Of a stretch of DNA of 39,971 nucleotides, positions 35,691 through 39,895 are shown one piece after another. Positions within the stretch are counted from its first letter, which is position 1. Each line of letters begins with the position of its first letter. The stretch comes from Blastococcus sp. CCUG 61487 (GTDB lineage: Bacteria; Actinomycetota; Actinomycetes; Mycobacteriales; Geodermatophilaceae): assembly GCF_005222955.1 (NCBI RefSeq), contig NZ_LWUA01000052.1, positions 1 to 39,971 on the forward strand. The letters are read 5' to 3'. The notes beneath the pieces are model-generated. The model was given only the letters and a program-made list of their open reading frames with translations, was not told where the DNA came from and did not search any database. The position numbers were made by a program, and so were the translations under genes.

Positions 35691-36611
35691 GTGCGCCGTC
35701 GTCCGAACGTCTCCGGTGACCTGCCCACCGTCTTCGAGACCGCGCCGATGTTCCGGCGGACGCTGGCCGGCTACGACCGCTTCCAGGTCGACTCCTACGT
35801 CCAGTGGGCGGAGGACGAGCTGGCCACCGCCGACCGGGAGCGCGAGCACCTGACCGAGCGGCACCTCCGCACCGAGGCCGAGCTGGCCGAGGCCCGCGAG
35901 CTGCTCGCGCACTCCTCGGCGGGGGGCGAGTTCCTCCAGCTCTCCCGCCGGCTCGGCACCCTGCTCGCCACCGCGGCCGACGAGGCCGACGGGATGCTCG
36001 GCGAGGCCGACGCCGACCGCCGTGCCGCCGTCGCCGAGCTCGACCGGGCGGCCTCCGAGGCACGCGCGATGACCGCGCAGGCCGTGGCCCAGGCCGAGCT
36101 GACGACCGCGGCCGCCGCGTCCGAGGCCGCCGGCCTGCTGGCCGAGGCCCGCCGGTTCGTGGCGGAGGCCGAGGTGACCCGGGCCCGGGCGGCGACGGAC
36201 GCCGAGGCGGTCCGCGCGGAGCTGCGGGCCCTGGAGTCGCGCGCCGTCGAGGCGGCGGAGCGACTGCGGCAGCAGGCCGCCGACGAGGTGGCCGCGGCAC
36301 GGCTGCAGGTGCGCGAGGAGATCGTGGGCATGCTGGCCACCGCGCGAGCGGAGCGACAGCGGGCCGACGCCGACGCCGCCCGGGACCGCGCACGCCGGGA
36401 CGAGGCCGCGGATCGCCACCGGTCCGCGCTGCTCGGCGAGGTGACGGCGCTCGAGGGCCGCCGCGACGCGCTGCGCCGCGAGGTCGACGGCCTGGCCCGG
36501 CGACTCGCCCGGCCGGCCGCCGACACGCCGGTGCCCGCCCAGCGGTCGGTGCTCGCGTGGCTGGGCCGGCCGCCCCGGCTCAGGAAGCCGGTGTCGATCC
36601 CGGAGCGGTGA
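35691..36611 (+). CDS. DivIVA-like coiled-coil protein
   Basis: About 306 residues, mostly heptad-like helix rich in Ala, Glu and Arg. The N-terminal FRRTLAGYDRFQVDSYVQWAEDEL resembles the membrane-binding DivIVA/GpsB start (the FRRxxxGYDxxQVDxYV pattern), and the remainder is long coiled coil with a basic tail. Such proteins mark poles or septa and recruit wall-growth or chromosome factors. The start is uncertain: GTG 35691 is used here, with ATG 35748 (just before FRRTL) and ATG 35619 (preceded by GAGAGG) as alternatives. The 3' end overlaps by 32 bp the end of the convergent UGSC gene. Confidence 0.75.
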   Translation: MRRRPNVSGDLPTVFETAPMFRRTLAGYDRFQVDSYVQWAEDELATADREREHLTERHLRTEAELAEARELLAHSSAGGEFLQLSRRLGTLLATAADEADGMLGEADADRRAAVAELDRAASEARAMTAQAVAQAELTTAAAASEAAGLLAEARRFVAEAEVTRARAATDAEAVRAELRALESRAVEAAERLRQQAADEVAAARLQVREEIVGMLATARAERQRADADAARDRARRDEAADRHRSALLGEVTALEGRRDALRREVDGLARRLARPAADTPVPAQRSVLAWLGRPPRLRKPVSIPER

Positions 36612-37113
36612 CCGCGGCGACGACGGCGGCGTACGCGTCGTCGGCGACGGCGCGCAGCTCCTCGTCGGTCCGGTCCTGCACGGGGTGCGGGACCAGGACG
36701 AACGGCGCGGGGAACCCGAGCGCCTCGCCCTGCATGCGGGCGGCGTCGGCGAACACCTCGCTGGCCAGGAAGACCCCCACCACGCCACGGCGCTCGAGGT
36801 CGGCGATGTCGTGCACACTGCACGACGTGCACGAGCCCTAATCGGCGAGCGCCTCGATGACCACCTCGCACCGCTCGGCGATCTCGTGCCGCAGGTCCAC
36901 CGGCGCCGTACGGGTGAACGTGGGCTTGCGGTAGCGGCGCACGATCACGCCGTCGGCGGTGAGCAGCTCCTCGAGCCGGTTCAGGACGACGTCACCGCGG
37001 GCCTTGCTGATGTCGAGCAGCCCGACGGTGCGGCCGCGCAGCTCGGCGGGGCGGGGCAGCAGCTCCCGCTCCGTCGTCCGCTGCTCGCCGGTCGGGTCCA
37101 GGACTGTTCTCAT
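36580..37113 (-). CDS. UGSC-family selenoprotein with an in-frame UAG (Sec) codon
   Basis: One 178-codon gene from ATG 37111-37113 to TGA 36580-36582, interrupted at codon 92 by TAG (36838-36840). Residues 1-91 match the UGSC N-terminus, including RPAELRGRTVGLLDISKARGD and RYRKPTFTR. After the TAG the same frame continues GSCTSCSVHDIADLERRGVVGVF...VPHPVQDRT, the rest of the family. TAG stands exactly at the U (or Cys) of [UC]GSC. A SECIS-like hairpin starts 11 nt downstream. UAG-coded selenocysteine is known in Geodermatophilus and Blastococcus, so I read this as full-length, 177 aa. The gene overlaps the thioredoxin-domain gene's stop (ATGA). Family function is unknown; a redox role is likely from the Sec, the nearby CxxC and the partner. 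Alternatives are a pseudogene or two separate ORFs. Confidence 0.88.
36808..36826 (-). promoter_or_regulatory. Candidate bacterial SECIS hairpin
   Basis: In the mRNA, GUCGUGCA-GUG-UGCACGAC is a perfect 8-bp stem with a 3-nt loop that begins with GU, the bases SelB-recognised bacterial SECIS loops usually show. The stem begins 11 nt after the UAG and the loop 19 nt after it, within the usual window. It lies in codons for TSCSVHD, so the element is inside the coding sequence, as in bacterial selenoprotein mRNAs. Confidence 0.75.
36838..36840 (-). other. In-frame TAG, predicted selenocysteine codon
   Basis: The codon is TAG, not TGA, and is followed by GGC TCG TGC (GSC). From a Cys codon or from TGA two base changes would be needed, so a single sequencing error is unlikely. 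Other genes in the window also end in TAG, so readthrough must depend on the SECIS. Confidence 0.82.
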
Positions 37114-38507
37114 GCGTGCACCTCTCGAGTCACCGGGGCGCTCCCCGTGTCACCGGACACCCAGCCGCCGACGATGGCGCTGAACAGGCCGGCGTCGCCG
37201 CCGGCGTGGGCGACCAGCAGACCGCCCGGTCGGAACTTCGGCAGCTCGATCCCCGCGAGCCCCTCGTGGATGCCCTCGGCGATGCCGTTCGCGCCGCGCA
37301 GCAGCTCGTCCGACGGGAGGGTGAGCAGCGTGGTCAGCTCGGCGATCAGCCGGGCGCGGTCCCAGCCGGCCTCGCGGAACACCCGGCCGTGCTCCGGGGA
37401 GACGATGAGGAGCGCGTCGAACGCCATGGGCAGCTTCGGGTGCCCGTTGACTCGGAGGCAGGCGGCGAAGGTGCGCGCCAGCGACTCGGCCGTCCGGCTG
37501 AGCTGGTCGACGACGGGCTGCACACCGGAGCCGGCGAAGAGGGTGACCGCGTCGCCCGGGACTCCGCGGTCGGCGCTCAGGGGCGCGAACGGGCTGCCCT
37601 CCTCGCGCTCGGCGAAGCAGAAGGTGAGCTTGCCGGGGTTGCCGAGGGTGGCCCGGTCGATCCCGCCGGGCCGGCCGCCACCGACGTTGCGGACGACGAG
37701 CTGCAGCGCCCGGCCGATCGTGGCGTTCGCGCGGTTGCCCTGCCCCAGGGCGTTGACCCCGCTGTTCATGCCGATCCGGCGCGCGATGGGGCCGTTGACG
37801 ACGACCACCGGTCCGGAGAAGTACGTCGTCGCCAGCAGGCCGTGGAGGGCGAACTCCTCGGTGCAGGCGGCCTCGAGGGCGGCCAGCACGACCGGCAGGT
37901 GCTCGGGCAGGCAGCCGGCCATGACCGCGTTGACCGCCACCTTCTCGACGGTGCACTCGACGAGGTCGGGCGGGACGACGGCGACGACGTCCTGAGGGTC
38001 GCGGGTGGTGCCGCGCAGCATCCGCAGGACCCGCTCGGGAGTGGGCGGAACGACGGGGAGGCCGTCGGTCCAGCCGCGGTCGAAGAGCGCCTCGTGCTCG
38101 TCCTCGAGGTCGGCGAGCTCGACGCGGCGGCTGCTCAGGCCGGTGCCGCCGTAGCGCGCCTCGAGGGCGTCGATCCGGAACGGGTCGACCGAGAGCGAGC
38201 CACAGCCGGGGCGGTGCTCGGGGAGGTCGGGGCCCAGGCCGGTGCGGCCGGTCAGCTCCTCCCACTGCTCGCGGCTCCAGCCGACGACGCGGGCTGTCTC
38301 CTCGCCATCGGTTATCCGCATCAGGGTGGGGACCGTCTCGATGCCGAGCCGGTAGGAGAGCTCGAGCTCGGTGTCGTCGTGGTCGAACCACTCGGGGTCG
38401 TCCTGGGACCAGACCGCGGCGCCCAGGTCACGCAGGACCGGTTCGACGAGGACGCAGGTGGGGCAGTCGCGCTTCACCACGGCCACGAGACCGTCGGGCA
38501 GCTGCAT
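37110..38507 (-). CDS. Thioredoxin-domain protein partnered with the UGSC selenoprotein
   Basis: A 465-residue protein. Residues 1-100 form a thioredoxin-like domain with a C15-P-T-C18 active site, a later TVPTLMRI (cis-Pro) strand, and GWSREQWEELTG. The larger part, about 130-460, is a conserved domain of unknown function that begins DRGWTDGLPVVPPTPERV and contains SGVNALGQGNRANATIGRA and GNPGKLTFCFAE; I know it as a frequent neighbour of UGSC proteins. The ATG at 38505-38507 has no Shine-Dalgarno but TACGGT lies 7 nt upstream, so a leaderless mRNA is likely. Its stop overlaps the UGSC start (ATGA). A thiol/selenol electron transfer between the two proteins is inferred. Confidence 0.87.
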   Translation of the reverse strand: MQLPDGLVAVVKRDCPTCVLVEPVLRDLGAAVWSQDDPEWFDHDDTELELSYRLGIETVPTLMRITDGEETARVVGWSREQWEELTGRTGLGPDLPEHRPGCGSLSVDPFRIDALEARYGGTGLSSRRVELADLEDEHEALFDRGWTDGLPVVPPTPERVLRMLRGTTRDPQDVVAVVPPDLVECTVEKVAVNAVMAGCLPEHLPVVLAALEAACTEEFALHGLLATTYFSGPVVVVNGPIARRIGMNSGVNALGQGNRANATIGRALQLVVRNVGGGRPGGIDRATLGNPGKLTFCFAEREEGSPFAPLSADRGVPGDAVTLFAGSGVQPVVDQLSRTAESLARTFAACLRVNGHPKLPMAFDALLIVSPEHGRVFREAGWDRARLIAELTTLLTLPSDELLRGANGIAEGIHEGLAGIELPKFRPGGLLVAHAGGDAGLFSAIVGGWVSGDTGSAPVTREVHA

Positions 38508-38514
38508 GCGTCGG

Positions 38515-38520
38515 ACCGTA
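38515..38520 (-). promoter_or_regulatory. -10 element of a leaderless promoter for the thioredoxin-UGSC operon
   Basis: On the minus strand TACGGT is followed by 7 nt (CCGACGC) and ATG. This supports a two-gene leaderless operon, so both products would be made from one transcript starting at 38507. Confidence 0.5.
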
Positions 38521-38644
38521 GCGCATGGGGCGGCAATCATCGGCTGCCTGGCGGCCGACTACCTGTCCGCGTCAAGCCCCGTCCCGCATCTGTGGACAGG
38601 CGTCTGACCTGGGGATTCAGGTGGTCGAGGCGTGCTTGCTGCGG

Positions 38645-38650: not shown

Positions 38651-38666
38651 TCGTACATGTGTTCGA
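38651..38666. promoter_or_regulatory. Candidate LexA (SOS) box
   Basis: TCGTACATGTGTTCGA differs at one position from the mycobacterial/actinobacterial LexA consensus TCGAAC-N4-GTTCGA. It covers the predicted transcription start and the first three codons. LexA binding there would repress this gene until DNA damage. Some 13E12-family genes of mycobacteria are known to be LexA-controlled. Confidence 0.6.
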
Positions 38667-39895
38667 CCGGATGTGAGACGCCGCTGGAGTGCCTGACCGG
38701 TGCTCTGGAGGCGTTGGCCGGTCAGGAGCTGACGTCGTCGTTCGGGCCGGCGATGCTGGAGCGGGCCGGGGTGCTGGTCCGCGCGCGGAACACGCTGGTC
38801 GCCGATCTGGCCCGCACCGTGCGGGAGTGCGAGCTCACCCAGGCACCGGAGCACGACGGCAAAGCCACGATGGCCTCCTGGCTGCGCGGGCACCACCGGC
38901 TGCCGCAGGCCGTCGCCTCGCAGCTGGTCCGCACCGGCCGCGCCCTGCAGCAGCTGCCGGCGCTGGCCGCCGCGGCTGCGGCGGGCGTGGTGCCGCCCGA
39001 GGCGGTGACGGTGATCGCCCCGATCGCGTCGGAGGTCAATGTTGCCCGGGCGCAGGCGCAGGGGGTGGAGCTCGCCGAGATCGACGCCCTGCTCACCGAG
39101 GTCGCCGCCACCCGGCCACACGCCGACCTCCGCCAAGCCGTCGGGCACTACCTGGACCGGCTGGACCCCGACGGACCCGAACCCGACCCCACCGAGCAGC
39201 GCAGCCTCACGGTCACCCGGGACAGCAACGGCCTGGTGGTCGGCCGGTTCGTCCTGGACGCGATCGGCGGGGAGAAGCTGCAGGCCGCGATCGAGTCGAT
39301 CCTGCAGGCCTCCCGCCCCGCCGGTGACCTGCGGACCCGCGCCCAGCAGGCCGGTGACGCCCTCGTCCAGCTCGTCGACAACGCCCTGGCCTCCGGCGGG
39401 CTGCCGATCCTGCGCGGCCACAAGCCCCACGTGGTGGTCACCATCGACCTCGACGACCTGGTCGACCCCCACACCGGGGCCGGAGCTGCCCGTACCGGGT
39501 TCGGCGGCGTCATCTCCGCCGCCAAGGCCCGCTGGCTGGCGTGTGACGGCAACGTCACCCGCATCGTCATCGGCCCCGACGGCCAACCCCTGGACGTCGG
39601 CCGCACCAAGCGGCTGTTCCCGCCGCACCTGCGCCGCGCGGTGGAGATCCGCGACCAGCACTGCGTCTTCGCCGGCTGCGACGCCCCCTCCTGGTGGTGC
39701 GACGTCCACCACCTCGTGCACTGGGCCGACGGCGGAGACACCTCACTGGAGAACTCAGGGCTCCTGTGCGAACGGCACCACACCAAGGTCCACCACGGCT
39801 TCCGGATCGAACGACAACCCGACGGCCGATGGCGCACCTACCGCCCCGACGGCACCGAGATCCTCGTCCTCGAACCGTTCCTCATCCCCGCCTGA
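38657..39895 (+). CDS. DUF222 (13E12 repeat-type) protein with C-terminal HNH nuclease domain
   Basis: A 412-residue protein. DUF222 spans about 40-300, with SWLRGHHRLPQAVASQLVR and EAVTVIAPIAS. The HNH domain is near 330-380, with the zinc-holding CVFAGC and the catalytic WCDVHHLVHWADGG...LLCERHH. These proteins are multicopy in actinobacterial genomes and may be tied to mobile DNA or DNA-damage responses, but their role is unclear. The ATG at 38657 is preceded by TAGTAT at 6 nt, so the mRNA is likely leaderless. The nuclease motifs look intact. A strong terminator follows. Confidence 0.93.
   Translation: MCSTGCETPLECLTGALEALAGQELTSSFGPAMLERAGVLVRARNTLVADLARTVRECELTQAPEHDGKATMASWLRGHHRLPQAVASQLVRTGRALQQLPALAAAAAAGVVPPEAVTVIAPIASEVNVARAQAQGVELAEIDALLTEVAATRPHADLRQAVGHYLDRLDPDGPEPDPTEQRSLTVTRDSNGLVVGRFVLDAIGGEKLQAAIESILQASRPAGDLRTRAQQAGDALVQLVDNALASGGLPILRGHKPHVVVTIDLDDLVDPHTGAGAARTGFGGVISAAKARWLACDGNVTRIVIGPDGQPLDVGRTKRLFPPHLRRAVEIRDQHCVFAGCDAPSWWCDVHHLVHWADGGDTSLENSGLLCERHHTKVHHGFRIERQPDGRWRTYRPDGTEILVLEPFLIPA

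Follow-up and report, generated by a model that had tools for sequence, protein, structure and literature searches.

The window analysed here is a stretch of 39,971 nucleotides from Blastococcus sp. CCUG 61487 (contig NZ_LWUA01000052.1), a member of the Geodermatophilaceae. It contains a gene of the UGSC family, interrupted by one in-frame TAG, together with a hairpin resembling a selenocysteine insertion sequence (SECIS) and an overlapping partner gene, all on the minus strand. The UGSC gene (36580..37113) is read from 37113 to 36580 and encodes 177 residues, counting a selenocysteine (Sec) at position 92 (U92). Its sole interruption is the TAG at 36840-36838, and the translation runs M1-D91, TAG, GSCTSCS and onwards to the terminal stop. 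A sequence-only reading of the window had joined two open reading frames (ORFs), split solely by this TAG, into one protein with Sec at residue 92. The joining and the residue number are borne out, and so are the coordinates, which had been given with no strand.

The joined product matches the Pfam UGSC profile PF24696 over positions 1-171 of 172 (E 3e-43, 148 bits, cut-off 25). It also passes the NCBIfam model NF041046, 'UGSC family (seleno)protein', with 140 bits against a cut-off of 125. When searched singly, the two halves match PF24696 at 1-92 (E 3.1e-16) and 94-171 (E 2.7e-18). The matches abut, and the TAG therefore occupies profile position 93. In an alignment with UGA and Cys homologues, the Sec/Cys column of the [UC]GSC motif holds TAG in the window gene (36838..36840, minus strand) and TGA or TGC/TGT in its relatives, exactly the site that the sequence-only reading had named. 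The gene looks intact and most likely encodes a UGSC-family selenoprotein, a small redox protein.

The source genome, a 4.1-Mb draft in 296 contigs, carries a matching Sec machinery. Two tRNA-Sec matches lie above the Rfam gathering score. One has a CUA anticodon (64.2 bits); the other (48.8 bits) is typed as tRNA-Ser(UGA) by ARAGORN. No UCA tRNA-Sec was found in the genome, where a single match was obtained at E 1e-9 and eight of ten matches at a weaker threshold were typed, the untyped two being the lowest (32.1 and 30.6 bits). The genes selD (TIGR00476, 387 bits), selC (CUA), selA (TIGR00474, 424 bits) and selB (TIGR00475, 265 bits) are grouped on one contig, whose end cuts selB after its first 322 residues. 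A formate dehydrogenase (FDH) gene on a different contig has TAG at its own Sec site (ARI-U-HSSTVPGL). The sequence-only reading had pointed to a CUA selC accompanied by selA, selB and selD, with a UCA-only selC as the contrary outcome; the four genes are present side by side, selB in part, and selC is of the CUA type. The CUA tRNA-Sec at locus L009 (8348-8439, G000:C50) is typed as tRNA-Pyl by ARAGORN, a label that may mislead automatic annotation.

A census of 112 genomes of the family, with a tRNA-Sec threshold of E 1e-9, found the tRNA in 108. The anticodon was read for all 110 rows and is CUA in 102 and UCA in eight. The CUA form is present in 101 of the 108 genomes, and its anticodon arm, GCGGCCTCTAAAGCCGAC, is identical in 102/102 rows. 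The UCA rows represent seven genomes of three genera (g5, g6 and g7) and a second copy in genome G058. The three genera (L051-L056, L059), which have the UCA form only, delimit the codon swap within the family. A compensated change of an anticodon-stem pair, U-A to C-G, separates the CUA copies from six of the eight UCA copies (L001, L050-L079, L342-L420). Genome G058 (L132, G058:C17, 1169-1263; also L050) combines the usual CUA tRNA-Sec with a UCA tRNA-Sec of 81.8 bits. The UCA copy lies near ORFs that we read as resembling transposases, and one SelA match was found genome-wide. Provided that this copy is genuine and no contaminant, both UGA and UAG could be decoded as Sec within a single cell.

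UGSC matches occur in 54 of the 112 genomes and number 95, as counted from the table; exactly one TAG is present in 72, no stop in 23 and TGA in none. All 72 TAG codons fall on the U column in the aligned set (122 distinct sequences from the family and a class sample), making a chance origin very unlikely. The seven genomes in which only a UCA tRNA-Sec was found are devoid of UAG-type UGSC. FDH matches at E 1e-40 are found in 101 of the 112 genomes, and those spanning the whole query hold one TAG each. Partial matches in G033, G096 and G098 stop short of the Sec site and contain no TAG. Genome G079 is an exception, with fragments only, one of which (query 1-164) crosses the Sec site without a stop and another of which has two TGA codons. 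The g5, g6 and g7 genomes gave no match to the UAG-type FDH at E 1e-40.

Searches were also made beyond the family. In the class sample of 394 genomes, UGSC is present in 23 and one gene carries TGA (G197); the remaining listed rows, the family's own aside, have no stop. In a phylum sample of 396 genomes, 29 have a UGSC match, 27 of them above the cut-off, and most strong rows carry one TGA. The Sec column of 37 aligned rows from the phylum search contains 34 TGA and three Cys codons. Among 70 named loci, 27 rows, from Blastococcus or Geodermatophilus, have TAG; 10 have TGA and 33 have Cys. Locus L223, removed from this alignment by the length filter and read separately, has TGA. A scan of the named loci revealed no Cys member of the window's subfamily (ALADUGSC-SCS). 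The alignments exclude matches beginning past profile position 30, and the named-locus and later sets also exclude those ending before 130. Of 12 genomes with TGA-type UGSC, 11 have a tRNA-Sec, invariably with UCA, and the L207 genome gave none; three TAG-type genomes run alongside gave CUA. Over the genomes compared, the Sec codon and the tRNA-Sec anticodon are seen to co-vary.

The SECIS-like hairpin (36808..36826, minus strand) has the sequence GUCGUGCA-GUG-UGCACGAC and starts 14 nucleotides from the initial U of the UAG. Like bacterial SECIS elements, it is a stem-loop in the coding region right after the Sec codon, with its apical loop about 22 nucleotides past the first base of the codon; it differs from them in trailing UAG. 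Its sequence is mostly identical to that of UGA orthologues in the window's subfamily. At fixed offsets, the inner six pairs are complete in 46/46 UAG, 37/44 UGA and 3/83 Cys genes (distinct sequences), and sliding the counting window reduces the number to between 0 and 3 per group. UAG genes form 7.57 pairs against 4.8 in synonymous-codon shuffles, the highest of 500 shuffles reaching 5.37. For Cys genes the excess is only slight (4.83 against 4.43). Compensating changes affect four of the eight pairs, with seven cells against 1.4 in shuffles, in a ten-sequence set that was chosen by hand and has three rows beginning a few bases off the codon. One observation speaks against a functional hairpin: taken on its own, the window sequence folds no better than shuffles. 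In the comparison of genes, the predicted hairpin is kept by compensating changes and is conserved in structure across UGA and UAG genes.

The part of the gene beyond the TAG is under purifying selection. The median ratio of nonsynonymous to synonymous differences (pN/pS) is 0.262 downstream of the TAG and 0.339 upstream (666 pairs from 37 distinct genes), with a downstream maximum of 1.04. Given these ratios, both parts appear to be maintained as protein. UAG also retains its ordinary function in these genomes. The 64 family stretches surveyed near UGSC genes gave 391 rough gene calls, of which 301 end in TGA, 89 in TAG and 1 in TAA, and 2 of 26 calls in the window terminate in TAG. Since TAG still ends ordinary genes, UAG looks like a codon recoded in context, not one reassigned.

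These terminating TAG codons are compatible with the view that the TAG of the window gene is itself a true stop or a pseudogenising mutation, leaving a 91-residue fragment as the product, and termination will compete with Sec insertion. However, the TAG is kept in 72 of the 95 matches, within the aligned set always at the same codon, the sequence after it is under purifying selection, and the codon is UGA or encodes Cys in other bacteria; a mere stop is thus very improbable. The tRNA-Pyl label of the CUA tRNA could instead be taken to mean that UAG encodes pyrrolysine, or that a suppressor tRNA inserts a standard amino acid there. We regard this as extremely improbable, for the tRNA scores above the Rfam tRNA-Sec cut-off and adjoins selA, selB and selD, and UAG occupies the Sec site in UGSC and FDH alike. 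UAG 92 is almost certainly decoded as Sec. This was the proposal of the sequence-only reading, and the CUA selC, the neighbouring sel genes, the alignment and the agreement of codon and anticodon in the family all support it.

The partner gene (37110..38540, minus strand) lies directly upstream of the UGSC gene. Its stop codon and the UGSC start codon overlap in an ATGA (37110..37113). By domain search, the 476-residue product consists of a thioredoxin-like domain with a CPTC motif (residues ~10-99) and a second domain (~150-476), for which no Pfam or NCBIfam match was found at E 5; in all, about 350 residues follow the thioredoxin-like domain. A DUF222 protein gene (window 38657-39895) is divergent from the partner gene. 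Among the named loci, all 69 counted rows have a homologue of the partner near UGSC and on its strand; this count covers plus-strand rows and leaves out the second L243 UGSC row, which is on the opposite strand. The partner is a separate upstream ORF in all 27 UAG and all 10 UGA rows. In 32 Cys rows it is fused in 21, separate and upstream in eight, and separate and downstream in three. The fusions, in which a Cys UGSC and the unclassified partner domain share one ORF (L226, L227, L228, L230, L231, L233 and 15 others), come from actinomycetes, Sphingomonads and other hosts. In the wider locus set the partner is present at most loci, and no match was found at L031/L131, L181 and L185.

The AlphaFold2 model of the UGSC protein is a confident α/β structure with a mean predicted local distance difference test score (pLDDT) of 91.2. 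Strands and helices alternate, and the motif is located between a strand (84-90) and a helix (93-108). The listed structure matches are flavodoxin-like, receiver-like and Rossmann-like, which are common folds only. The partner model has a pLDDT of 84.7, and structure searches with it likewise returned common folds only.

A mechanism can be proposed from these features. The CUA tRNA-Sec would read UAG 92 as selenocysteine, and the SECIS hairpin just past the codon would presumably direct SelB to deliver the Sec. UAG at other sites still terminates genes. In the model, the selenol of U92 precedes a helix of the predicted Rossmann-like α/β fold and may pair with C95 to form a UxxC redox couple. 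The second domain of the partner would hold the substrate, which U92 would attack or reduce, and the CPTC of the partner would then reduce the resulting U92-C95 bond. UAG-decoded Sec combined with a redox pair formed with the partner is, very probably, the best explanation overall.

The partner is constant, sometimes fused, equipped with a CPTC motif and encoded by an overlapping gene, and the pair is proposed as one enzyme. We lean towards a two-protein selenol redox enzyme composed of UGSC and its partner. UGSC may instead act alone as a thiol peroxidase or general antioxidant, the neighbour being no part of the enzyme. The grouping of UGSC with thiol-oxidoreductase-like UxxC selenoproteins in the available text of PMC2398784 is in line with such a role. 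Nevertheless, a neighbour of one family accompanies UGSC on the same strand in every counted row, with the two fused in 21 Cys rows, and a stand-alone function seems rather unlikely. The constant, sometimes fused partner offers a route to the function of UGSC.

The history of the codon swap was examined in trees built from rows thinned by identity. A tree of 123 rows was computed with the U column masked and without 11 loci whose rows were long or odd. It nests the window clade in a UGA clade (branch supports of 99/89 and 97/97). The UAG clades VGDUGSCSA and IGDUGSCSA sit in a mostly Cys group (100/95). The UAG label requires six changes on this tree, and the starred branches force at least five, whether gains or losses. 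In a concatenated tree of partner and UGSC, which omits L207 for want of a full partner gene, UGA genes of the window's subfamily, from two metagenome genomes (a Frankiaceae and a Frankineae), join a UAG clade that includes Geodermatophilus obscurus DSM 43161 (99/95). An approximately unbiased (AU) test, however, gave p 0.238 for a single UAG clade, which is therefore not rejected. The one anticodon-arm sequence shared by 102/102 CUA rows points to a single anticodon switch, and the data suggest a single origin of the CUA tRNA-Sec from the UCA form, in a lineage ancestral to most Geodermatophilaceae. A tentative scenario, possible though doubtful, is a single anticodon switch alongside several conversions of UGSC genes to UAG, in which genes that came into the lineage or evolved there from Cys genes would have been rewritten one at a time to the local Sec codon. 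If true, the swapped codon would be a barrier to gene transfer that was crossed repeatedly.

The gene lends support to a natural use of a stop codon other than UGA for selenocysteine. Such genes are likely to be split by standard annotation. The matched UGA and UAG orthologues, with near-identical SECIS elements, provide a natural experiment on Sec codon swapping. Proteins of the Geodermatophilaceae with UAG-encoded Sec were reportedly described by Mukai et al. in 2016. According to the accessible text of PMC5330540, FDHs and UGSC-motif selenoproteins with UAG, together with a CUA tRNA-Sec, were reported for the family in its reference 56, and AhpC is added there as a further UAG-Sec selenoprotein. 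Sec specified by UAG in Blastococcus also appears in the accessible text of PMC5133445. The sequence-only reading had named UAG-directed Sec with a CUA tRNA-Sec as reported in Geodermatophilus and Blastococcus, and these sources have it in print. The codon swap in Geodermatophilaceae was thus already published in 2016-2017, and the window gene is a further case. A literature search on Geodermatophilaceae Sec, which reached few subscription papers, found no later family-wide study. Added here are a family map of the swap, the conservation of the SECIS in genes of the UGA and the UAG type, a minimum of five gains or losses of the UAG label in the gene tree, and the constant neighbour.

As far as the published cases are described in these texts, the window shares with them the organism family, the CUA tRNA-Sec, and FDH and UGSC genes with UAG, and differs in the genome. 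UGSC itself was described, in the part of PMC2398784 available, as an abundant selenoprotein of the Global Ocean Sampling (GOS) survey, and its fusion with an 'Unknown_1' domain was noted there in 2008. This domain, known from its description with the sequences uncompared, is possibly the same as the second domain of the partner. The window protein resembles the UGSC of that source in its full-length match and motif, whereas the Sec codon is UAG here and UGA there. The predicted fold may also differ: a thioredoxin-like fold is deemed likely for UGSC in the same text, whereas the model of the window protein appears Rossmann-like.
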